A stretch of 64,000 nucleotides of DNA, from assembly GCF_004766045.1 (NCBI RefSeq), contig NZ_SPQQ01000001.1, forward strand, positions 372,001-436,000, in the 5' to 3' direction. Source of the DNA: Desulfosporosinus fructosivorans (GTDB lineage: Bacteria; Bacillota; Desulfitobacteriia; Desulfitobacteriales; Desulfitobacteriaceae). Of this stretch, positions 3,120 to 50,780 are shown one piece after another (position 1 is the first letter of the stretch; each line of letters starts with the position of its first letter). Below the pieces are notes generated by a model. That model did no database searches and was not told the DNA's origin. It was given only the letters and a program-made list of their open reading frames with translations. The position numbers and the translations under genes were made by a program.

Positions 3120-3212
3120 AATTGATTGTGAAAAGGCAAACTAGCTGAAAGGTTGGGGCGCAAAGTTAGAAGTCTAAGGCGCTATATGGTGCTATGATGG
3201 TTCGGCTGCCAA
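3120..3212 (+). ncRNA. c-di-GMP-I (GEMM) riboswitch upstream of galU
   Basis: Shows the class I layout: GGCAAAC, a short P2 arm capped by GAAA, the conserved GGCGCAAAG, a longer P3 arm, and a closing GGCTGCC that pairs with GGCA to form P1. The GGCG replaces the usual GGACG core sequence, so this is the most divergent of the five copies in the window. The 3' strand of P1 is shared with the terminator hairpin at 3206-3230, giving a direct route to ligand-controlled termination before galU. Confidence 0.75.
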
Positions 3213-3230
3213 GTAATTGGCAGTTTTTTT
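3206..3230 (+). terminator. Riboswitch-linked intrinsic terminator before galU
   Basis: CTGCCAA / TTGGCAG stem of 7 bp with a GTAA loop, followed by seven T. The 5' arm overlaps the closing P1 strand of the GEMM aptamer, so aptamer and terminator should be mutually exclusive; this suggests that c-di-GMP turns galU on. Confidence 0.8.
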
Positions 3231-4163: not shown

Positions 4164-4255
4164 GGGTTCATGCTCGGGGATACATCTTGTCCCTTGAAAG
4201 GCACCGGTATTAATCCCGATGACTTATCTAATTGAAGTGCTTTCGAATGGGGGTC

Positions 4256-4281
4256 CAAATGGTGCATCGATGCACCATTTG
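4256..4281. repeat. 26-bp perfect palindrome, copy 1
   Basis: Perfect palindrome centred on ATCGAT with arms CAAATGGTGCATC. Related copies lie at 5282-5307 and 5451-5480, and all are followed by a similar ACCTA or ACTACACC segment. Confidence 0.85.
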
Positions 4282-4359
4282 ACCTACACCTAGGCGCTCA
4301 TCCTTCTGGGGATCTCGAACAGCTCGCTGTCGCTCACCTCGTATGGGTTAGGATTATAA

Positions 4360-4923: not shown

Positions 4924-5281
4924 ATGCTCACCTCCTTTCTTGAAGATTGGACAATGGTTGTCCTAAGTTTAGTATATTGGCTGGACTTGATTTTTGTGAC
5001 AGCTTGGACAAATCTGGGGTCTCCCTCCCCCTTGATCCAGAGTCCGATGGATTCAGAAGGGTTGTATATAGTCTGGATTTGCTTCTACTATGGTTTTACT
5101 GTTGGGAAGCATCTTTCTCCAAATCGCATTTTTTTATGGGTAAATAACCCTCACGCTTGTCTGGGGCTCGGCATATCCTATAATGGTAACTGAAAAGACA
5201 TTCCGAAAAAAGGATGGGCAGACGGTATGAGGATGATTTCCAACAGGACGCCTGAGCAAATTGCGTACGAGGAAGAGAGCC
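4924..5281. other. Gene-free stretch with degraded repeat pieces
   Basis: No convincing gene. A 25-base segment near 4993-5020 (GTGACAGCTTGGACAAATCT) recurs almost unchanged at 5402-5424. Open frames on both strands lack ribosome binding sites and overlap one another. Confidence 0.5.
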
Positions 5282-5370
5282 CAAATGTTGCATCGATGCA
5301 ACATTTGAACTACACCCAAGGGCTTATCCTTTTTGGGATCCCGGTAGAGGACCGGGATCAATTTATAGCG
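5282..5370. repeat. Palindromic repeat unit, copy 2
   Basis: A 26-bp perfect palindrome at 5282-5307 (arms CAAATGTTGCATC) is followed by a conserved segment that ends in a second inverted repeat, GATCCCGGT / ACCGGGATC. The whole unit is repeated at 5451-5547. Relative to the other copies the palindrome has paired GT-to-TT and AC-to-AA changes that keep it perfect. Confidence 0.8.
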
Positions 5371-5410
5371 GACAATGATGTTGGGAACATGAGCCATTTT
5401 TTTGACAGCT

Positions 5411-5450: not shown

Positions 5451-5547
5451 TTCAAATGGTGCATCGATGCACCATTTGAACTATACCCAAGGGCTCATCC
5501 TTTTTAGGATTCCGGTTGAGGACCGGGATCAATTTATAGCGGACAAG
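5451..5547. repeat. Palindromic repeat unit, copy 3
   Basis: A 30-bp perfect palindrome at 5451-5480 (arms TTCAAATGGTGCATC) plus the same 65-base follow-on segment as copy 2, including the second inverted repeat in slightly decayed form (GATTCCGGT / ACCGGGATC). It overlaps the 5' extension of the activator's open frame, so that extension is probably non-coding. Confidence 0.8.
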
Positions 5548-5586
5548 GCAAGCGCAGAGTGGAAAAAATCCGGCAATTTAAAGGAG

Positions 5587-5611
5587 TTCGCCCTATTGCG
5601 GGCGAATTTTT
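5587..5611 (+). terminator. Intrinsic terminator upstream of the activator
   Basis: TTCGCCC / GGGCGAA stem of 7 bp with a 6-base loop and five T. It lies inside the maximal open frame of the activator, which argues that the real start is further downstream. It may attenuate read-through into the activator gene. Confidence 0.6.
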
Positions 5612-5631
5612 CATTGAGTGAATTAATTGGG

Positions 5632-7479
5632 TTGCGCGATAAGGGAGGGGTTCCCATTTTTAATCGAGGGCAAATAAAAGAATCTCTTTTGACAAGCATA
5701 CGTAATAATACCCCTATTATCGGGGTGGCAGTCGGTTCTGGGCTTTCAGCGAAACAAGCGGCTGAAGGAGGGGCGGACTTTTTGCTTGTCTTAAATGCTG
5801 GGCGCTTTCGGACGATTGGTATTTCCTCTACGGGATGTATGATGCCCTTTGGCAATAGTAATGACATTGTTATGAAATTCGGGGTGGAAGAGGTTCTGCC
5901 CAGGGTCATTGAAAAGCCTGTCATCTTTGGTTTTTGTGCCACTGATCCTATGGTGGATCAGAGTGTCCTCATAGAACGGATTATCAAGAAGGGTTTTCAT
6001 GGGGTTAATAATTTCCCCACAGTTGGCTTGATTGACGGCCAGTTCCGGGAGGCTCTGGAAGAGAACAATTTTGGCTTTGACCAAGAAGTGGAGTTTATGA
6101 AGAAGGCGATCAGTCGCGGACTTTTTACGATTGCCTTTGTGTTTAATGAGGAGCAGGCAGAAAAGATGGCTGAAGTCGATGTCGATGTTATTTGCGCCCA
6201 TTTGGGTTGGACTGTGGGGGGGAAACAAAGTGTTAAGCCCAGGACGACCTTGGAAGAGGGGGTAAAGTACGCGAATCGAATCTTTGAGGCTGCCAATCGG
6301 GTCAATCCTGGTGTGTTAAACATGGTTTATGGGGGACCTATCAAAACTCCTCAAGATGCTAGCTTCTTCTATCAAAATTCCAGTGCGGTTGGGTATATCG
6401 GGGGTTCCAGTTTCGAAAAGTTTCCGACGGAAACGGCGATCAAGGAGACGACGGATAACTTTAAGAATTATGTACGCCTGATGAAGGAAAATGAAATTCT
6501 CAAGAAGGAACTGATTAAGAAAAAGGGTTTTGATGAGATTGTTGGCCAGAGCAGAGTGATGCAGGACATTTATGACATCATCAATAAGGTGGCTGACAAA
6601 GATATCAATGTTTTAGTTCATGGGGAAAGCGGAACAGGTAAAGAACTTGTGGTCCGGGCAATCCATTTCAATAGCCTGCGCTATAAAGGACCTTTTATTA
6701 AGGTTAATTGTGCTGCTTTAACGGAGAGCATCTTAGAAAGTGAACTCTTTGGGCATGAAAAAGGGGCGTTCACCGGTGCGCATCAACAAAGGATGGGACG
6801 CTTTGAACTGGCTAACCACGGTACTTTGTTGCTTGATGAAATCGGGGAAATGAGTCATAAGACCCAGGCCAAACTCTTGAGAGCCATTCAGGAGCAGGAG
6901 ATCCAGAGGGTTGGGGGCAATAAGACTATCAAAGTCGATGTGCGGATTATTTGTGCCACCAATGTCGATATTCAAAAGTATGTGAGCGACGGGAGACTGC
7001 GGGAAGATCTCTATTATCGGATCAATGTGATTTCGATTAACACTCCACCTCTGCGTGAGCATAAAGAGGATATTGCGTTGCTCGTGCATCACTTTCTGAA
7101 GAGAATCGAGGAGAAGTTTCAAAAGAAGATTACTAGAATGACCCCTGCGGCCTTGGATTGTCTGATGCAATATGATTGGCCGGGAAACATCAGGGAACTT
7201 GAACATACTTTAGAGCGGGCTGCTGTGCTTTGCGACGGGGAAGTGATTGGCATCCCTGATTTACCGGTGTTGATCCAGAACGTTAATTCGGAGCAGGAGC
7301 TGGTTTTTACCGAAGGACAGATGACCCAATTTACCAATGTCAATCTAGAGATCATGGAGCGCCAGTTAGTGATTGATGCCTTAGAAAAATTTGATTGGCA
7401 CCGAACCAAGGCGTCTCAGTACTTAGGAATAACCCGCAGAACCTTATATAACAAAATGATGCGCTATAAAATTCTCTAA
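5632..7479 (+). CDS. Sigma-54 activator with TIM-barrel (PEP-hydrolase-like) sensor domain
   Basis: Three-part regulator: an N-terminal TIM-barrel domain of the PEP_hydrolase type (to about residue 280), a sigma-54 AAA+ domain with Walker A GESGTGKE (about 331), GAFTGA (378-383) and Walker B LLLDEIGE, and a Fis-type helix-turn-helix at the C-terminus (RTKASQYLGITRRTLYNKM). The sensor aligns along its length with the enzyme encoded at 8891; shared motifs include GLSAK, NFPxVGLIDG, PTETAI and GGPI, but His225 of the enzyme is Tyr here. The open frame extends up to 5467, through repeats and a terminator. TTG 5632 is the nearest ordinary start; an ATT at 5656, five bases after GGAGGGG, fits the alignment better. 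It probably activates the -24/-12 promoter at 7601. Confidence 0.9.
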   Translation: MRDKGGVPIFNRGQIKESLLTSIRNNTPIIGVAVGSGLSAKQAAEGGADFLLVLNAGRFRTIGISSTGCMMPFGNSNDIVMKFGVEEVLPRVIEKPVIFGFCATDPMVDQSVLIERIIKKGFHGVNNFPTVGLIDGQFREALEENNFGFDQEVEFMKKAISRGLFTIAFVFNEEQAEKMAEVDVDVICAHLGWTVGGKQSVKPRTTLEEGVKYANRIFEAANRVNPGVLNMVYGGPIKTPQDASFFYQNSSAVGYIGGSSFEKFPTETAIKETTDNFKNYVRLMKENEILKKELIKKKGFDEIVGQSRVMQDIYDIINKVADKDINVLVHGESGTGKELVVRAIHFNSLRYKGPFIKVNCAALTESILESELFGHEKGAFTGAHQQRMGRFELANHGTLLLDEIGEMSHKTQAKLLRAIQEQEIQRVGGNKTIKVDVRIICATNVDIQKYVSDGRLREDLYYRINVISINTPPLREHKEDIALLVHHFLKRIEEKFQKKITRMTPAALDCLMQYDWPGNIRELEHTLERAAVLCDGEVIGIPDLPVLIQNVNSEQELVFTEGQMTQFTNVNLEIMERQLVIDALEKFDWHRTKASQYLGITRRTLYNKMMRYKIL

Positions 7480-7484
7480 ATTCT

Positions 7485-7514
7485 GGCGATTGGGAAGATA
7501 TCTTCTCAATCGCC
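7485..7514. promoter_or_regulatory. 30-bp near-perfect palindrome between activator and sigma-54 promoter
   Basis: GGCGATTGGGAAG and its complement meet at a central GATATC; the 15-bp arms hold only one G-T mispair. It lies about 90-115 bases upstream of the -24/-12 promoter, a usual enhancer distance, so it may be the activator's binding site. It could also act as terminator of the activator gene, though no T-run follows. Confidence 0.55.
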
Positions 7515-7600
7515 TTAGTATTGAGCAAGGATTTTCTCAAAGGAGGGGAACGCTGGGAAAGTGGGTTCCCATTTTTCAGAATATATCGCCTATTCGGCCT

Positions 7601-7616
7601 TGGCATGGTTCTTGCA
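7601..7616 (+). promoter_or_regulatory. Sigma-54 (-24/-12) promoter
   Basis: TGGCATGGTTCTTGCA matches the consensus TGGCAC-N5-TTGCA, with the invariant GG (7602-7603) and GC (7614-7615) exactly ten bases apart. It lies 40 bases before the Tm-1-like gene and directly downstream of a sigma-54 activator gene. Confidence 0.9.
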
Positions 7617-7655
7617 CTAGGTAAAGTAAAAGGTGCAAAGGAGGGATAATTTAGA

Positions 7656-8888
7656 ATGACAGCTGGCAAGGTTGTAATTATCGGTACTCTTGACACCAAG
7701 GGAGTGGAACTTCAGTACATAAAGGAGATTGTGGAAGGCAGCGGACTACAAACCATCGTCATCAATGCCGGAATTATCGGGAAGCCTTATTTTGAACCTG
7801 ATATTTCCAACGTCTCTGTGGCTGAAGCGGCTGGAACGACCCTGATGGAATTGATCGAGCAAGGGGACAGGGGCCAAGCGATCGATGTGATGATGAAGGG
7901 TTCTGCCGAGATAGTGCGACAGCTTTTCCAAGCGGGCCAAGTCGGTGGCATGATCAGTGTCGGCGGATCAGCCGGGACCACGGTTGGGTGCTATGCGATG
8001 CAGGTTTTACCCGTAGGGGTGCCCAAGATTATGGTCTCAACCGTGGCTTCTGGAGATACCAGCCCTTATGTGGGAGTTAAGGACATTACCATGATGTATT
8101 CTGTGGTTGATATTTCAGGCCTTAACCGGCTTTCCCGGACGATTCTGGCGAACGCAGCGTTTGGGATTTCTGGAATGGTCAAAGGAAGCCAGAGTACTCA
8201 GACTCAGGCCGCAGAGAAGACGTTGCTGGGTGCAACGATGTTTGGAGTTACCACCGCTTGCGTTACCAAGGCCAGAGAGTATCTGGAAGAGCGTGGGTAT
8301 GAGGTTTTGGTCTTCCATGCCACAGGATCAGGCGGCAGAGCTATGGAAAGCTTGATAGAATCTGGTTATATCAAAGGGGTTTTGGACATCACCACGACGG
8401 AATGGTGCGATGAGCTGGTGGGAGGAATTTTCGCGGCAGGACCGCTGCGCCTTGAAGCAGCTGGAAAGGCTGGGATACCCCAGGTTGTGTCTGTTGGTGC
8501 TCTAGATATGGTTAACTTTGGTTCGTTGGATTCTGTTCCTGGGAAGTTCAAGGGGCGTCGTCTCTATCAACATAACCCCACGATTACCTTGATGCGCACG
8601 ACAGTGGAGGAAAACCGGGAACTTGGGAAAATCATTGCCCATAAACTGAATCAGACTCTTGGGCCAACCGCCTTGTTCCTACCCTTAAAGGGGGTTTCGG
8701 CGATTGATCAGGAAGGACAGCCCTTCTATGGTCCGGAGGAAGATGAGGCTCTCTTCCAGACCTTGCGGGAAGAGCTTAATCCAGTGCGGGTCAGCTTAGT
8801 GGAAATGAATAAGAATATCAATGATCAAGAATTTGCAGTTGCCATGGCAGAAAAGTTGATACAAATGCTCGAAGCAAAGGAGAATTAG
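7656..8888 (+). CDS. Tm-1-like ATP-binding protein (UPF0261 family)
   Basis: A 410-residue cytoplasmic protein of the UPF0261/Tm-1 family. The N-terminus [18 protein letters not shown] is typical, followed by the glycine-rich [37 protein letters not shown] and [14 protein letters not shown]. The tomato Tm-1 protein, which binds ATP and inhibits a viral replicase, carries this domain fused to a TIM barrel; here the barrel is the next gene, two bases after the stop. The bacterial reaction is unknown. First gene of the sigma-54 operon; GGAGG precedes the ATG. Confidence 0.92.
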
Positions 8889-8890
8889 AA

Positions 8891-9724
8891 ATGACAATTT
8901 CCAGGAATGAAATACTTTCTAGGTTAAAAGCGCAAGTGGCTCAGGGAAAAGCGATTGTTGGTGCTGGTGCAGGAACGGGGCTTTCGGCTAAAAGCGCGGA
9001 AGCGGGTGGAGTTGACCTCATTATTATCTATAATTCCGGACGATACCGGATGGCTGGCCGTGGTTCTTTAGCAGGCCTGATGCCTTATGGGGATGCCAAT
9101 CTGATTGTTGTGGATATGGCAAGTGAGGTTTTACCAGTTGTCAAGAACACGCCTGTGCTGGCTGGAGTGTGCGGTACAGACCCCTTCCGCTTAATCGATG
9201 TCTTCCTGAAGGAACTCAAAGATATGGGCTTTTCGGGAGTACAGAACTTCCCTTCAGTGGGCTTAATCGATGGCTTGTTCCGCACGAATTTAGAAGAAAC
9301 TGGCATGGGTTATGACCTTGAGGTAGAGATGATTCGCAAAGCCCATGAACTTGATTTGTTGACAACCCCTTATGTCTTTAATGTCGAGGAAGCTGAGAAA
9401 ATGGCTAGAGCAGGGGCCGATATTTTAGTGGCCCATATGGGGCTGACAACGAAAGGGGCCATCGGAGCAAAGACTGCCTTGACCTTAGATGATTGCGTTG
9501 AGAAAATTCAAGCCATTCACGATGCAGGTAAAGCGGTGAATCCCGATATCATGGTCATCTGTCATGGCGGACCGATCTCCGAACCGGATGATGCTAATTA
9601 TGTACTGCAAAGAACAAAAGGGGTTGTTGGTTTCTTTGGTGCTTCCAGTATCGAGCGTCTCCCAACTGAAACCGCGATCAAAAATCAAGTGTTGGATTTT
9701 AAGAAGCTTGAACTGCGTCAGTAG
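8891..9724 (+). CDS. TIM-barrel phosphoenolpyruvate-hydrolase-family protein
   Basis: A 277-residue TIM-barrel protein of the PEP_hydrolase (PF09370) family, equivalent to the C-terminal half of plant and fungal Tm-1-type proteins. Motifs: [12 protein letters not shown] near residue 25, [31 protein letters not shown] with His225, and LPTETAIK. Its ribosome binding site AAGGAG lies inside the end of the upstream gene, so the two are translationally coupled and probably work as a complex. The family name implies a C-C or phosphoenolpyruvate-type hydrolysis, but no substrate can be read from the sequence. Confidence 0.9.
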
Positions 9725-9771
9725 TTGAAGTGGAACTATTAGAGTAAAAATGATCGAGGAGGAATTGCAGA

Positions 9772-11136
9772 ATGAAGAAGAAATTGGGGTCTGTGTTACT
9801 CGTAGCCTCGTTAATCCTGAGCTTAACCGTGGTGGGCTGCTCCTCACCTAAACCTGCTGCTACACCTGCCACACCTACGGGTGAGCCAATCGGGATTGGG
9901 GTGGTTGGCCCGATGACTGGTTGGGCTACAGTCTATGGCGAAAATGTTGTTCAAGGGGTTCAGTTAGCCTTAGATGAAGTAGGCGGAAAGTATAAGGATC
10001 GCCCGATTAAGCTGTACATTGAAGATACCAAGGCAGAAGTTGAAGTCATGGTTACCAAATTAGACAGCTTAAAACAACGGGATAAAGTCAATATCATCAT
10101 TGGGCCATCGTTGGGGCATGAAGGGGACGCTGCACCTGGTTGGGCAAAGAAAAACCTGGATGTTCTGATGATGCCTGGTTACGCCGCCCCCCAAGATATG
10201 ACTATGAGAGATCGTACTCCTAATATTATCCGGGCTGGCTGGACGGCTGATCAGGTCATCTTTAACTTTGGTCAGTTCGTCGCTAAGGACCTTAAGTACA
10301 AAAAAGTGATCGTGGTTGGGCAGGACTATGCTTATCCATGGGGCCAGGCTGCCGGCTTTAAACGTGGTTTCTTAGAAAATGGTGGACAAGAGGTTAAGAC
10401 GATTTGGCATCCGGTGGAAATGTTGGATTTTAGTTCGATGATGGGCCAGCTTCAAACCATGGCTAAAGATTATGATGCTGTGATGTATAACGGGGGCGGT
10501 GCCCAGGTTATTGCCTTCTGGAAGCAATGGGAACAGTATGGCATGGGCAAACTCTATCCCCAATTATTAGGTGGAGCCAATATTCCAGATGTTCCGATTC
10601 TTACGGAAGTATCCGAGAGCTTTGAAGGTCTCTACTCTTCCATGCACTATGCCGATGGCATGGATCTCCCGGCTAACAAGAAGTTCAAGGAAGACTTCCA
10701 AAAGAAATTCAATAAACAAGCGGATGCTATCGCCCTTCAAGGGTATGACACCATGAAAGTTATCCTCAAAGGCTTAGAGGCCACAGAGGGTAAGACGGAG
10801 GATATTGCTGCGTTAGAAAAAGCCATCTTGGCTGTTAAAGTGACTGATTCACCGCGCGGACACTTCTACTTCGATGAGTACGGCCAGGCTGTGCAGGATA
10901 TCTATATCAAGCAAGTTAAGAAAGTCGATGGTAAACTCGCCAATGTTGTAGTTAAGACTTATAAAGATGTGACGCAATTTGGACCTTACGAGAGCATTAA
11001 GGATAAATATATGTCCATGCCTCCAGATGGTCGGGATTATCCGTCGGGCAACCTAAGTGAGTATACAGCTGATATCACTAAATATCTCGGGCAAAGCTAT
11101 GTCGATGATTTAAAGAAAAATGGTGGTTGGAAATAG
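9772..11136 (+). CDS. ABC transporter substrate-binding lipoprotein, branched-chain amino acid/amide type
   Basis: A 454-residue type I periplasmic-binding-fold protein. The N-terminal signal ends in a lipobox LTVVGC with Cys23, then a Pro/Thr/Ala linker. The domain begins IGIGVVGPMTGWATVYGENVVQG, typical of the LivJ/urea-amide group. It is probably anchored outside the membrane and delivers its ligand to the permeases encoded downstream. The operon context suggests the ligand is the substrate, or a precursor, of the Tm-1-like/TIM-barrel pair. GAGGAGG precedes the start. Confidence 0.92.
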   Translation: MKKKLGSVLLVASLILSLTVVGCSSPKPAATPATPTGEPIGIGVVGPMTGWATVYGENVVQGVQLALDEVGGKYKDRPIKLYIEDTKAEVEVMVTKLDSLKQRDKVNIIIGPSLGHEGDAAPGWAKKNLDVLMMPGYAAPQDMTMRDRTPNIIRAGWTADQVIFNFGQFVAKDLKYKKVIVVGQDYAYPWGQAAGFKRGFLENGGQEVKTIWHPVEMLDFSSMMGQLQTMAKDYDAVMYNGGGAQVIAFWKQWEQYGMGKLYPQLLGGANIPDVPILTEVSESFEGLYSSMHYADGMDLPANKKFKEDFQKKFNKQADAIALQGYDTMKVILKGLEATEGKTEDIAALEKAILAVKVTDSPRGHFYFDEYGQAVQDIYIKQVKKVDGKLANVVVKTYKDVTQFGPYESIKDKYMSMPPDGRDYPSGNLSEYTADITKYLGQSYVDDLKKNGGWK

Positions 11137-11154
11137 GAACTAAGTAATTGTGAA

Positions 11155-11176
11155 GGGGAGCAAATCTTTGCTCCCC
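11155..11176 (+). terminator. Intercistronic hairpin after the binding-protein gene
   Basis: GGGGAGCAAA / TTTGCTCCCC stem of 10 bp with a 2-base loop and no T-run. Such hairpins often protect the abundant binding-protein mRNA or partly terminate transcription before the permease genes. Confidence 0.5.
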
Positions 11177-11204
11177 CAAGAAATCCCGAGAGGGGAGGGT
11201 TTGC

Positions 11205-12056
11205 ATGTTTTTATCAACTTTTTTCAATGGATTAACCCTCGCAGCACTCTTATTTATCATGGCTATTGGCCTTAACCTGTCCTTCGGTCTTTTGCGGGTT
11301 GTCAACCTTTCTCACGGAGCCTTTTATTTGTTTGGGGGATATATTGGCCTAAGTGTGCTTAAATCTACAGGCCACTGGTGGTTAGGGGTATTATGCGGAG
11401 CCCTTGTTGCGGGCGGGATCGCTGCCATTGAGGAAATCTTCTTCTTAAGGCGTGTGCGGGGTAAATCGACACTAGAGACCTTAATCACACTCTCTATGGC
11501 TATTATTATTTCTGATCTGATCGTCGTGATTTGGGGTGGCAACCCCAAGATGATTGCAATTCCCAAGGCTTTGAAAGGGTTTGTGAGCCTGTTTACCGTC
11601 AATGTTCCAATTTATAACTTATTTCTCCTAACGTTTGCCTGTGTGATCGGGCTTGGCTTGTGGTTGCTAATTAATAAAACTAAGATGGGAATGATTATCC
11701 GTGCCGGGGTTGACAATTTCGAGATGGTGTCAGCTCTGGGAATCAATATACGCCTTGTCTTTACGCTTGTATTTTCCTTGGCTGGCTTTATGGCAGGAAT
11801 GGCAGGGGTCATTGGGGGAACGTTTCTGATGGTAGCCCCGGGTGAGGACTGGCGCATCTTGACCTATACCCTCCTGATTATCATTATCGGGGGGATGGGA
11901 AGCTTTGGGGGGACGATCATTGGTTCGATTATCATCGGCTTGATCTTTAGTTTCGGCAGTGTGTATGTCCCTCAATTTTCCCTATTTCTCATGTTTGCCC
12001 CTGTTGCTTTGACCTTGGTTATTAGGCCGAAGGGCTTATTCGGGAGGACATTATGA
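11205..12056 (+). CDS. ABC transporter permease, LivH type
   Basis: A 283-residue integral membrane protein with about eight hydrophobic segments. It shows the family signature NLSFGLLRVVNLSHGAFYLFGGYIG near residue 20, and a cytoplasmic coupling segment near GVDNFEMVSALGINIRLVF (EAA-like loop). It forms the translocation pore with the LivM-type permease, whose gene overlaps its stop codon by four bases. Start ATG is preceded by GAGGGGAGGG. Confidence 0.92.
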   Translation: MFLSTFFNGLTLAALLFIMAIGLNLSFGLLRVVNLSHGAFYLFGGYIGLSVLKSTGHWWLGVLCGALVAGGIAAIEEIFFLRRVRGKSTLETLITLSMAIIISDLIVVIWGGNPKMIAIPKALKGFVSLFTVNVPIYNLFLLTFACVIGLGLWLLINKTKMGMIIRAGVDNFEMVSALGINIRLVFTLVFSLAGFMAGMAGVIGGTFLMVAPGEDWRILTYTLLIIIIGGMGSFGGTIIGSIIIGLIFSFGSVYVPQFSLFLMFAPVALTLVIRPKGLFGRTL

Positions 12057-13015
12057 GAAAGAACTATAAGCTTTGGGCCCTAATAATCAGCATTCTTCTC
12101 TTAGCCGCAATCCCTCTGGTTGTGGATCAGTTTTTTATCACGATGCTGATCAGAATTATGTACTTCGGTTTACTTTCTGTGGCCTTTACCTTCTTGGCCG
12201 GACAATTGGGATTGTTTTCTCTGATGGTTCCCGTCTTTATGGGAATTTCCGCCTATACAATTGCCATTCTCGAATCCAAGGAAATCTTGCTGTTTCCCTA
12301 TTCCGTCCTTGTCGCCTTAGGCATTATTTTAGCCTTTGCGGCCTTGGCTGGATTCCTGGTCAATCGCTCTAAAGAAGTCTATTTTCTAATGCTCACCCTA
12401 GTTTTGGGTCAACTCGTTTGGGCTATCGTCTTGCAATGGGTTAGCCTGACCAAAGGAACGAATGGGATTTCTGGTATTGAGGTACCCCATTTATGGGGTT
12501 TAGGACAGGGGTCGAATGTCGGATTCTATTATTATACTCTGGCTGTTTTTAGTTTGGTTGTCTTAGGGCTCACAGCCATAATGAGGTCTTCGTTTGGCCT
12601 GAAGCTGCGCGGCATTAGGGAAAGCGAGTCGCGGATGATCATGCTTGGCTACAATGTGGCCTTATTAAAGTGGGCAGCCTTTATGATTTCTAGTTTCATA
12701 GCCGGACTGGCAGGAATCTTCTACGTTTATTACTCAGGCTTGATTAACCCGGATTCAATCAGCCTTAACTCAGCGAACCAAGTCATGATTGCTTCGATTT
12801 TTGGTGGAGTAAACAGTATTATTGGGGCAATTCTAGGCACCGGGATTATTAAGACTCTGGAGATTGTGTTAAGTGGCAGCACCCAACGTTATTTGCTGAT
12901 TATCGGAATCTTATTCTTAGTGGTCATTATGTTTGCCCCCAAAGGGGTCATCGACATTATGGAGCGCGTGATGAATAAGCTTTGGAAAGGAAGTCCTTAT
13001 GACAAAAGAAGGTAA
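12053..13015 (+). CDS. ABC transporter permease, LivM type
   Basis: A 320-residue permease with about ten hydrophobic segments, starting in an ATGA overlap with the LivH-type gene. The coupling segment LKLRGIRESESRMIMLGYNV and the C-terminal APKGVIDIMERV are family-typical. Partner of the preceding permease in a branched-chain-type importer. The last 17 bases overlap the ATPase gene. Confidence 0.92.
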   Translation: MRKNYKLWALIISILLLAAIPLVVDQFFITMLIRIMYFGLLSVAFTFLAGQLGLFSLMVPVFMGISAYTIAILESKEILLFPYSVLVALGIILAFAALAGFLVNRSKEVYFLMLTLVLGQLVWAIVLQWVSLTKGTNGISGIEVPHLWGLGQGSNVGFYYYTLAVFSLVVLGLTAIMRSSFGLKLRGIRESESRMIMLGYNVALLKWAAFMISSFIAGLAGIFYVYYSGLINPDSISLNSANQVMIASIFGGVNSIIGAILGTGIIKTLEIVLSGSTQRYLLIIGILFLVVIMFAPKGVIDIMERVMNKLWKGSPYDKRR

Positions 13016-13763
13016 ACCAGCCTTAACAGTTCGCAGCCTCTCCAAGTCATTTGGAGGAGTCAAAGCGATTGATAACGTTTCTTTGACCTTAGATGCAGGG
13101 TGCAGTCGGGTTCTGATCGGTCCTAACGGAGCGGGGAAGACCACTCTTTTCAATCTGATTACCGGAGAAATCCCTATGGATGAGGGGGAAATCTACCTGT
13201 TTGGGGTGGATATTAGTCAAGCAAAGATTCAGAAGAGGAGTGAGCTGGGGTTAACTCGGACTTACCAAATTTCTAACTTATTTAAAGAACTGACGGTTGA
13301 GGAAAATCTCTATCTCTCGTTAAAAGATAAACAGTGGAATTCCCAAGGGGATTTCTCAAGTCTCTGGACGTCATGGATGAAGTCGTATAAACGAGTGCAA
13401 CGGATCGAGGAAGTCTTAGCCAGTGTTGGTTTAGAGGGTAAACGCCAAACTCTCGTGAGTAGTTTGGCCCACGGTGAACAGCGGCAACTGGAGTTGGGTA
13501 TGGCTATCTCCTCTAATCCCAGAATAATCTTCTTTGATGAACCGATGGCAGGGTTGTCCCCGAACGAAAGGGTTTTCATGGGCAAGTTGATCCGGAAATT
13601 AGCGGCGGAAAAGATCATCTTAGTCATCGAGCATGATATGGATTTTGCTTTAAGTTTGACCGATGATGTGACAGTACTGGATCATGGCAGGGTGATCGCG
13701 GAAGGGCGACCTGAGGAGATCAAGTCGAATCCAGAGGTCAAGAAGATTTACAAGTTGGGCTGA
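12999..13763 (+). CDS. ABC transporter ATP-binding protein, LivG type
   Basis: A 254-residue ATPase with Walker A GPNGAGKTT (about residues 46-54), signature LAHGEQRQLELGMA in place of the usual LSGGQ, Walker B IIFFDEPMAGL, and the switch His in VIEHDMDF. The C-terminus IAEGRPEEIKSNPEVKKIY is typical of LivG. It overlaps the upstream permease gene; its start follows AAAGGAAG inside that gene. Confidence 0.92.
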   Translation: MTKEGKPALTVRSLSKSFGGVKAIDNVSLTLDAGCSRVLIGPNGAGKTTLFNLITGEIPMDEGEIYLFGVDISQAKIQKRSELGLTRTYQISNLFKELTVEENLYLSLKDKQWNSQGDFSSLWTSWMKSYKRVQRIEEVLASVGLEGKRQTLVSSLAHGEQRQLELGMAISSNPRIIFFDEPMAGLSPNERVFMGKLIRKLAAEKIILVIEHDMDFALSLTDDVTVLDHGRVIAEGRPEEIKSNPEVKKIYKLG

Positions 13764-13892
13764 GACGTTTTTAGGTTGCTTGTAGTTGTTCGTAGTTGCT
13801 TGTAGCTGATTTTGTTTGAGTGCAGTTTGATTTTTTGTTGGGGTTAGTGGTTTGGATAGGTGAGAAAAATTTGGAGAATAAGGAAGGGAAAC

Positions 13893-14609
13893 ATGGGAGA
13901 AGCAATTTTAAAGATTAATAATCTAAATTCCTACTATGGGAAATCACATGTTCTTCAAGAGGTGTCTCTCACTGTTAATTCCCTGGAGAGAGTTGCCGTA
14001 CTCGGGAGAAATGGGATGGGAAAATCGACTCTGTTGAAGTCAATCCTTCGCCTACAGGATATTAAAGTAGAAGGGGATGTGCTCTTCAAGGGAGAAACGC
14101 TTAATCAAGCAAAAACCTATGAAATTGCCAAAAAGGGAATTGCCTATGTACCTCAAGGGTGGCTCTTATTCCCATCCCTTTCGGTTGAAGAACATCTTCT
14201 GGTAGCTTACCGCCCTGGTAAAAGTAAAGCTAAGGAATGGAATCCCGAACGGATCTTCGAACTATTTCCCGAGATTGCAGCTCGGAGAAAGGTTAGTGGC
14301 ACCAAACTTAGTGGCGGGGAACAACAGATTTTGGCTATTGGCAGGGCCTTGGTGAGTAATCCTGAAATCCTTTTGATGGATGAACCTTCAGAAGGGATCT
14401 CTACGATGGTGATTGACCGAGTTATTGACCTGTGTCATCAACTCACTGAGCAAGGAATTTCAATCCTCATCGTGGAACAAAATTTAGAGCTTGCTCTCAG
14501 AGTGGCGCAGAGAGTATACGTATTAGTTAACGGGCGAATTGTTTATGAGGGGACAGCCGAGGATTTCCGGGCGGATAAAGAAAGCCAGCATCAATTTCTG
14601 GGAGTATAA
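13893..14609 (+). CDS. ABC transporter ATP-binding protein, LivF type
   Basis: Second ATPase of the importer, 238 residues from the ATG at 13893, chosen because AAGGAAGGGAAAC lies directly before it (an in-frame GTG at 13860 has no such site). Walker A GRNGMGKST, signature LSGGEQQILAIGRAL, Walker B LLMDEPSEG and the LivF-typical VEQNLELAL are present. A 129-base gap containing GTAGTTG-type short repeats separates it from the LivG-type gene. Last gene of the sigma-54 operon. Confidence 0.93.
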   Translation: MGEAILKINNLNSYYGKSHVLQEVSLTVNSLERVAVLGRNGMGKSTLLKSILRLQDIKVEGDVLFKGETLNQAKTYEIAKKGIAYVPQGWLLFPSLSVEEHLLVAYRPGKSKAKEWNPERIFELFPEIAARRKVSGTKLSGGEQQILAIGRALVSNPEILLMDEPSEGISTMVIDRVIDLCHQLTEQGISILIVEQNLELALRVAQRVYVLVNGRIVYEGTAEDFRADKESQHQFLGV

Positions 14610-14702: not shown

Positions 14703-14787
14703 TTAGCGATAATGGCAAACTTAGTGAAAACTAAGGACGCAAAGCTATGGGTCTTCTAGGTAAAGCTGATGACTGCCAAGCAACCAA
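14703..14787 (+). ncRNA. c-di-GMP-I (GEMM) riboswitch upstream of the DUF3231 operon
   Basis: Class I features in order: TGGCAAAC, P2 arm closed by GAAAAC, the core GGACGCAAAG, P3 arm with GGGTCTTCTAGGTAAAGC, and TGCCA closing P1 against TGGCA. It is nearly identical to the copies at 20733 and 21149. A very strong terminator follows at 14805, before the DUF3231 gene. Confidence 0.92.
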
Positions 14788-14804
14788 TATAATACAACAC
14801 AGTC

Positions 14805-19556: not shown

Positions 19557-19645
19557 ATGTTAGCGATAATAGCAAACTTAGTGAAAACTAAGGACCGCAA
19601 AGCTATGGGTCTTCCAGGTAAAGCTGATGACAGCCAAGCTACCGA
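19557..19645 (+). ncRNA. c-di-GMP-I (GEMM) riboswitch, probably degenerate
   Basis: Same architecture as its neighbours, but the conserved core reads GGACCGCAAAG, with one inserted C compared with GGACGCAAAG in the three sister copies. P1 is weakened too: TAGCA no longer pairs fully with AGCCA. Ligand binding is probably reduced or lost. It precedes the first small exported-peptide gene. Confidence 0.8.
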
Positions 19646-19659
19646 ACAACTGCCACGTT

Positions 19660-20732: not shown

Positions 20733-20818
20733 AATGTTAGCGATAATGGCAAACTTAGTGAAAACTAAGGACGCAAAGCTATGGGTCTTCCAGGTAAAGC
20801 TGATGACTGCCAAGCTAC
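20733..20818 (+). ncRNA. c-di-GMP-I (GEMM) riboswitch upstream of the second small peptide
   Basis: Intact class I aptamer: TGGCAAAC, GAAAAC-capped arm, GGACGCAAAG core, GGGTCTTCCAGGTAAAGC and TGCCA. It and its -10 box TATAAT are near-identical to the copy at 19557 but without the inserted C. Confidence 0.92.
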
Positions 20819-20836
20819 CGAACAACTACCGCGATT

Positions 20837-21148: not shown

Positions 21149-21235
21149 GTTAGCGATAATGGCAAACTTAGTGAAAACTAAGGACGCAAAGCTATGGGTC
21201 TTCCAGGTAAAGCTGATGATTGCCAAGCCACCGAA
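21149..21235 (+). ncRNA. c-di-GMP-I (GEMM) riboswitch upstream of the transglutaminase-like gene
   Basis: Intact aptamer: TGGCAAAC, GAAAAC-capped arm, GGACGCAAAG core, GGGTCTTCCAGGTAAAGC and TTGCCA. It begins only 48 bases after the second small-peptide stop. Two consecutive terminators follow. Confidence 0.92.
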
Positions 21236-21253
21236 CAAACAAACGTTTCGCAT

Positions 21254-32090: not shown

Positions 32091-32306
32091 AGGGTCCGCG
32101 TCACATCTCCTCGCCATGCGGTCGTCGTGCCAAACTAGGGCTTTAATCCTTTCTTTGGGGAGGGCAGGGTTCCCGGCAAATCGGCCATCCTTGGCCGTTG
32201 CCGGCGGGAAACATCCTTGTTTCCCGCCCTGCTGATGAAAGTGGATTAAAGCCGAGTTTGGCTACGACGACCGCAAAGGCGTCGGAGCGTGTGAGCGCGG
32301 ACCCTC
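32091..32306 (+). repeat. Long-hairpin repeat, copy 1
   Basis: About 215 bases between GGGTCCGCG and CGCGGACCC ends. Inside, GGCTTTAATCC pairs with GGATTAAAGCC and further arms pair around a central GGCCATCCTTGGCC. A G-rich tail follows (to about 32500) with GCTGGAAA and GTGGCATGGGGACG motifs. Related copies lie at 39071, 50563 and 55803-57130. Confidence 0.85.
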
Positions 32307-50562: not shown

Positions 50563-50780
50563 AGGGTCCGCGAAACACTTCCTCGGCCATGCGTTCATCG
50601 TGCCAAACTAGGGCTTTAATCCGTCATGCAAGAGGGGTAGGATGCCCGGCCAATGCGACGTCCGTGTCGCATGGCCGGCGGGAAACGTCCTTGTTTCCCG
50701 TCCTACGGATGAAAGCGGATTAAAGCCGAGTTTGGCAACGACCACCGCAAAGGCGTTGGAGAGTGTTATCGCGGACCCTC
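50563..50780 (+). repeat. Long-hairpin repeat, copy 3
   Basis: Begins two bases after the ftcD stop with GGGTCCGCG and ends in CGCGGACCC. It keeps GGCTTTAATCC / GGATTAAAGCC; the central loop reads GGCCAATGCGACG...CGCATGGCC. Its tail shares GTGGCGCTGT and ACGCAGAGGCGCTTTG with the last copy of the array at 57 kb. Confidence 0.85.

Follow-up and report, generated by a model that had tools for sequence, protein, structure and literature searches.

A sigma-54 activator with a sensor barrel from the enzyme family of its own operon, and a possible UPF0261 pathway, in Desulfosporosinus fructosivorans

What compound is imported and processed when a UPF0261 (Tm-1-like) gene, a TIM-barrel gene and a complete ATP-binding cassette (ABC) importer lie together behind one sigma-54-type promoter, and by what signal is such an operon turned on? 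The question is raised by a locus of Desulfosporosinus fructosivorans, which we analysed within a 64-kb window (the whole stretch of DNA examined) of the 6.12-Mb genome. The activator encoded just upstream carries a sensor barrel that is a diverged member of PF09370, the family of the operon's own stand-alone barrel enzyme, and it would therefore likely switch the cluster on upon binding the substrate or product of the pathway. We consider the chances about even that the system as a whole combines a UPF0261 kinase, a cleaving barrel and a dedicated Liv-type importer with a sigma-54 activator whose enzyme-family barrel senses substrate or product. An earlier note on this DNA had covered the operon genes and posited a dedicated activator; the genes and the upstream sigma-54 activator both stand, but its range left out the activator open reading frame (ORF) at 5467-7479, which is part of the system, and the PF09370 sensor barrel was overlooked. 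The features of the locus are as follows (strand in brackets).

5467-7479 (+): sigma-54 activator gene, with PF09370, PF00158, PF25601 and PF02954; true start perhaps near 5656
5674-6468 (+): sensor barrel of the activator, residues 70-334, a diverged PF09370 member (343.5 bits)
6538-7038 (+): sigma-54 interaction AAA+ domain, residues 358-524 (PF00158, 240.4 bits)
7345-7467 (+): Fis-type helix-turn-helix, residues 627-667 (PF02954, 52 bits)
7490-7509 (no strand): dyad 1, candidate activator site, TTGGGAA-N6-TTCTCAA (13/14 positions)
7521-7540 (no strand): dyad 2, candidate activator site, TTGAGCA-N6-TTCTCAA (13/14 positions)
7601-7616 (+): -24/-12 promoter sequence, TGGCATGGTTCTTGCA, the sole exact match to TGGCAY-N5-TTGCW in the window
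7656-8888 (+): UPF0261 (Tm-1-like) protein, by analogy likely a small-molecule kinase (PF06792, 214.1 bits; PF23189, 327.5 bits)
8891-9724 (+): stand-alone PF09370 TIM-barrel protein, predicted lyase or hydrolase (451.5 bits)
9772-11136 (+): importer substrate-binding protein (PF13458, 195.6 bits)
11205-12056 (+): importer permease 1, LivH-like (PF02653, 125.3 bits)
12053-13015 (+): importer permease 2, LivM-like (PF02653, 109.3 bits)
12999-13763 (+): importer ATPase 1, LivG-like (PF00005 and PF12399)
13860-14609 (+): importer ATPase 2, LivF-like (PF00005, 105 bits); an ATG at 13893 may be the likelier start

The marks of a sigma-54 enhancer-binding protein were all found: an AAA+ domain containing the GAFTGA loop, a Fis-type helix-turn-helix (HTH), a -24/-12 site and a sigma-54 gene in the same genome (PF04552 match). 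No receiver domain was detected among the Pfam matches of ORF 5467-7479. PF09370, also named PEP_hydrolase and formerly TIM-barrel signal transduction, has only two matches in the whole genome, the activator's sensor and the operon's stand-alone barrel, each far above the family cut-off of 33.8 bits. A database search with the sensor barrel returned 563 proteins, and among the 120 listed, those most like the window sensor, 77 join PF09370 with PF00158 and 43 join it with the AraC-type domain PF12833 (counted by eye). Such fusions have already been noticed in database names ("TIM-barrel signal transduction protein", "predicted TIM-barrel enzyme/AraC-like DNA-binding protein"). We are unsure of the activator's start, as two close homologues of 607 aa (P0001 and P0004) align their first residue to residue 64 of this ORF, an ATT codon at 5656 preceded by AAGGGAGGGG, and not to the listed ORF start. 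A palindromic repeat is present in three copies in this region (4255-4317, 5281-5375 and 5452-5546), the third of which overlaps the listed start.

To compare sensor and enzyme barrels, 62 close stand-alone barrels (enzymes) were aligned with 28 regulator barrels (19 AraC-type and nine AAA-type) and 13 more divergent stand-alone barrels; L134 (the same sequence as L073), the broken locus L137 and barrels below 255 aa (the split L024 sensor among them) were left out, and L070_9 was counted as an enzyme with an extended start, not as AraC-type. Of 94 positions invariant in the 62 enzymes, one exception being permitted, 32 are kept and 18 are lost in at least 90% of the 28 sensors, with 44 intermediate. 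Two losses are universal: Y47 (replaced by L or F) and H225 (replaced by Y) are lost in 28/28 sensors and kept by the 62 close enzyme barrels, as well as by 12 of the 13 divergent ones. In plasmid records from other phyla, both residues are kept in 10/10 enzymes, one of them archaeal, and both are missing from 4/4 alphaproteobacterial AAA-type sensors. Several of the positions lost in sensors, including these two, lie at or near strand ends, as judged by eye from the secondary structure of a model. Five or six of the 13 divergent stand-alone barrels bear other sensor-type letters, for example G251 and N68. D68 and R100 were considered as general catalytic marks and dropped, since they are not kept in six of nine alphaproteobacterial enzymes.

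The same division appears in a quick tree of 117 barrels, where one branch parts 32 sensors from 85 stand-alone barrels (Shimodaira-Hasegawa-like approximate likelihood ratio test, SH-aLRT, 99) and the split survives removal of the 18 diagnostic columns; the tree is unrooted, with long branches flagged by the program, and gives no order of age for the sensor and enzyme states. The AAA-type sensors do not form one group in it, and the lineage is fused to either AAA+/Fis or AraC outputs.

Across genomes, the type of promoter follows the sensor's output domain. UPF0261 is preceded by a -24/-12 site with a score of 19.5 or more out of 22 in 7/9 barrel-AAA loci vs 0/81 other loci, the cut having been chosen after the scores were known; the best score among the 81 is 19.0 (L075), and over-extended ORF starts could conceal sites among them, as happened at L007, an eighth barrel-AAA locus, where the site was seen by eye downstream of such a start. 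At the ninth, L077, a sigma-70-like TTGACA-N17-TATACT stands before UPF0261, the activator is without GAFTGA and the genome, a 1.5-Mb draft of unstated completeness, has no PF04552 match; all eight other barrel-AAA genomes have one. Among 18 genomes with AraC-type sensors, PF04552 exceeds its cut-off in eight and does not in ten. GAFTGA is also missing from the four alphaproteobacterial AAA-type sensors of the plasmid records. It seems to us evenly poised whether a catabolic TIM-barrel enzyme has given rise, through a catalytically disabled copy, to a portable sensor, that is, whether a single lineage present in both Firmicutes and Alphaproteobacteria responds to metabolites of the UPF0261-barrel pathway through AraC, sigma-54 AAA+ or GAFTGA-less AAA+ outputs, with promoters to match. 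On rhizobial plasmids, short PF09370-family proteins divergent to UPF0261 (L149 7274-7861 and L158 7292-7846) adjoin GAFTGA-less barrel-AAA regulators; a partial PF09370 match was confirmed in L149.

In the window itself, TGGCAY-N5-TTGCW is observed once vs 0.10 expected, at least one match arising in 9/100 shuffles, and the sigma-54-type operon proposed earlier is supported; the genome has a sigma-54 gene. The two dyads between activator and operon are only suggestive as binding sites of the activator. A dyad of the form TTGAGAA-N6-TTCTCAA (at least 10/14 positions) occurs in 11 copies in nine activator-UPF0261 gaps, four of them in the window's gap, vs 2.56 on average, and never more than 7, over 200 shuffles; the motif was picked by eye from the gaps in which it was then scored, and shuffling destroys hairpins. 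The role of dyad 1 is doubtful because it lies inside a terminator-like hairpin at 7485-7514. The motif of dyad 2 has four matches with up to two mismatches in the window vs 0.44 expected, two of which lie elsewhere, and the dyad motif is absent from L125 and L077.

The gene content of the operon agrees with what the earlier note had read from it, Pfam and the coordinates giving a UPF0261 gene, a PF09370 gene after a 2-base gap and a five-gene Liv-type importer. The 7656-8888 product exceeds the cut-offs of both PF06792 and PF23189, and the importer has the make-up of the Liv/HAAT type, with a Peripla_BP_6 binding protein, two BPD_transp_2 permeases and two ATPases (Pfam).

As to chemistry, a UPF0261 homologue of Novosphingobium aromaticivorans has been solved with acetovanillone (PDB 9mpy; organism and ligand from the entry title), and, in the available part of PMC13101465, acetovanillone catabolism in this organism is described as beginning with a single-component kinase, MarK, which we infer to be Saro_1862, the UPF0261 protein of 9mpy. 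Because of 9mpy and MarK, the window UPF0261 is by analogy likely a small-molecule kinase. The two proteins belong to the same family over their full length (E 4.1e-73) and share 23/28 invariant positions of a 39-sequence alignment, but only 34/57 nearly invariant positions are common to both, and MarK is described as single-component whereas the window UPF0261 is trailed by a barrel gene. These precedents weaken the claim of the earlier note that the imported molecule has no described pathway; a catabolic role remains the likeliest reading and is likely.

The fold of the stand-alone barrel resembles, among others, phosphonopyruvate hydrolase and 2-methylisocitrate lyase, enzymes of the phosphoenolpyruvate (PEP)-mutase/isocitrate-lyase group, in match lists whose omissions do not exclude a family. 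Because of this fold alone, the barrel is predicted to cleave the phosphorylated product. Isocitrate and methylisocitrate lyases have the lyase motif K(K/R)CG, which is not in the 8891-9724 product, the sole CG lying in GVCGTDP. PEP hydrolase as a demonstrated activity was set aside, as no assay was found and the single text match was a glyphosate review. A structure (2p10) of Mll9387 from Mesorhizobium loti bears the title putative phosphonopyruvate hydrolase; no assay of that protein's activity was found.

Taken together in one scheme, the imported compound would be phosphorylated by UPF0261 and then cleaved by the barrel enzyme, while the activator's barrel would bind the substrate or the phosphorylated intermediate and thereby free its AAA+ module, so that sigma-54 RNA polymerase would transcribe the seven genes.

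The substrate might be a phenolic of plant origin, related to hydroxyphenylethanones or aromatic acids; UPF0261 would then be an aromatic kinase similar to MarK, and aromatic acids would enter through the importer. This reading, drawn by analogy, we regard as possible but rather doubtful. The acetovanillone bound in 9mpy speaks for it, but only 144/404 residues are common to that protein and the window UPF0261, sugar-type genes adjoin many relatives, and no aromatic-ring genes were found in the operon by Pfam. Among solved relatives of the binding protein, the highest-scoring, 4zpj (148 bits), is not known to have a ligand, which counts against the reading; the next, 4ey3 (108), 4evs (107), 4f06 (103) and 4evq (86), are binders of hydroxybenzoate-type acids and speak for it, but a ligand of this type was not assigned to the window protein. 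Lower-scoring solved relatives are 3td9 (69 bits), named a branched-chain amino acid protein, and urea- and Leu/Ile/Val-type proteins at 55 bits or less.

A scan of genome contigs yielded at least 585 relatives, and linkage was counted by tblastn in the best 80 loci. An enzyme-type barrel lies within 3 kb of UPF0261 in 64 of these best 80, and a sensor barrel nearby in 23 (four AAA, 19 AraC). Among 299 genomes of the phylum, PF06792 is found in 48 (46 over the cut-off) and PF09370 in 27; 25/27 PF09370 genomes also have PF06792, always on one contig and no more than about 2 kb apart (coordinates read by eye), in keeping with the close coupling of the two proteins that had been proposed. The association, co-occurrence and co-evolution of UPF0261 and the barrel are already published in PMC5028733, in its available part, as are the following distributions: nearly every land plant genome sequenced is reported to encode Tm-1-like proteins, the fused pair being retained in land plants, and in fungi the two domains are mostly separate genes, with only two Aspergillus genes reported as fused. 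The earlier statement that the domains are fused in plants and fungi thus holds for plants but, for the most part, not for fungi.

The window's eight-gene order is identical in Salsuginibacillus kocurii (L007) and Natribacillus halophilus (L008), and L137 (G356:C88), from a genome of the same taxonomic order as the window, has it in part and in decayed form, with a split barrel-AAA gene, barrel fragments with stops and importer genes 61-71% identical; no UPF0261 was found at this broken locus. L141 combines UPF0261, a barrel and a Liv-type importer. Enzyme-type barrels are lacking within 3 kb at 16 of the best 80 UPF0261 loci, some of them near contig ends; 23/48 PF06792 genomes of the phylum have no PF09370; and at least four of the five importer subunits lie within 9 kb at only three of the best 80 loci (L007, L008 and L041). 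The survey of linkage that the earlier note had suggested therefore upholds the pair but only in part the importer, whose connection in the exact gene order is seen in L007, L008 and, in part, L137, several relatives adjoining other importers. In the small eight-gene subgroup, the importer is likely dedicated to the substrate of the pathway. PF09370 was found in none of 28 other genomes of the genus, so the locus is accessory there; in the family of G022 it is present in 26/118 genomes, second barrels lying in open frames of about 400-520 aa. Neighbourhoods of relatives contain sugar-type ABC importers with MocA-type oxidoreductases, cupins and sugar-isomerase-like genes.

The sensor might respond to a protein and not to a metabolite. 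Dihydroxyacetone kinase subunits control DhaR, and by analogy the sensor barrel would imitate the enzyme barrel in binding UPF0261; the activator's state would then be set by UPF0261 that is not engaged with the enzyme, or by UPF0261 at a particular stage of its cycle. The 32/94 enzyme-invariant positions common to sensor and enzyme barrels fit this idea, as do the co-evolution of the two families and the interaction proposed for them in the available part of PMC5028733. Nonetheless, barrels occur without UPF0261 in 2/27 genomes (G029 and G271), and G029 has a barrel-AraC regulator despite that lack, and we consider protein sensing unlikely. It is less plausible still that the importer serves for some common solute, for example an amide or branched-chain amino acid, and shares only the promoter with a housekeeping or repair pair, an improbable reading which the rarity of importer linkage (3 of the best 80 loci), the fused pair kept in land plants (PMC5028733, available part) and the Liv-type importer with an amidase that adjoins the UPF0261-barrel pair in Bradyrhizobium would favour, but against which stand the eight-gene order common to three intact Firmicutes and partly preserved in broken L137, and a binding protein far under the NCBIfam LivJ- and UrtA-type cut-offs (PRK15404, 51.3 vs 477; UrtA, 84.7 vs 492.75). 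The nearest relative of this binding protein in its own genome is only 26% identical.

A putative metabolite-sensing activator beside the genes it would control has known counterparts. In PrpR/PrpB and similar systems, a ligand-type sigma-54 activator adjoins a catabolic operon, and PrpB resembles the window's barrel in fold; the window differs in that its sensor domain and the operon's own enzyme are members of one family. Sensors derived from enzymes are also known, a catalytic fold being reused as regulator input in BzdR, DhaQ and the ROK repressors, but the sensor lineage described here is joined to AraC, GAFTGA AAA+ and GAFTGA-less AAA+ modules. Tm-1 confers tobamovirus resistance on tomato; tomato Tm-1 and plant Tm-1-like proteins are encoded by one fused gene, whereas the window has two genes, accompanied by an importer and by an activator with a barrel as sensor. 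In the literature searched, whose coverage was partial, regulators of this barrel-sensor kind were not found described, and the available part of PMC5028733 has no mention of sigma, AraC or HTH. The native reaction of the UPF0261-barrel pair is not named in the literature consulted, and the locus makes a compact test bed: its binding protein is expected to identify the substrate, for which the activator's barrel should serve as a reporter. Should the sensor prove to be a disabled enzyme copy, its ligand would point to the substrate or product of the enzyme, and the lineage would clearly exemplify the conversion of an enzyme into a transcriptional sensor, its output modules swapped along with the promoter type.

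Other contexts of the two families were also recorded. A PhyH-like gene lies directly 3' of UPF0261 in ten Poribacteria loci (L029 11221-12126 and nine others, one Pfam-scanned), none with an enzyme-type barrel within 3 kb. A RuBisCO-like protein occurs with one or two stand-alone barrels, and often UPF0261, in seven loci, its identity confirmed by Pfam in L128, L129 and L135 and judged by eye in L127, L131, L140 and L142; a ComB-like phosphatase (confirmed in L128) or an amidohydrolase (L135) lies alongside. UPF0261 genes on Rhizobium, Shinella and Ruegeria plasmids (L150, L155, L151 and L157) have no barrel annotated nearby and neighbour class-III aminotransferases together with phosphotransferase or homoserine-kinase-like genes, and two of these loci also have HAD hydrolases; the UPF0261 genes perhaps belong to other kinase-dependent pathways. 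At L130 (G029), in a genome without PF06792, a barrel and a barrel-AraC regulator lie beside GSP_synth-type ATP-grasp, PfkB and KduI genes.

Elsewhere in the window, five c-di-GMP-I type riboswitches lie on the + strand (3125-3213, 14704-14788, 19561-19646, 20739-20823 and 21152-21236), the second directly 3' of the operon and 5' of a DUF3231 gene, and two TwoAYGGAY RNA motifs, of unknown function, lie on the minus strand (32116-32276 and 50589-50750).

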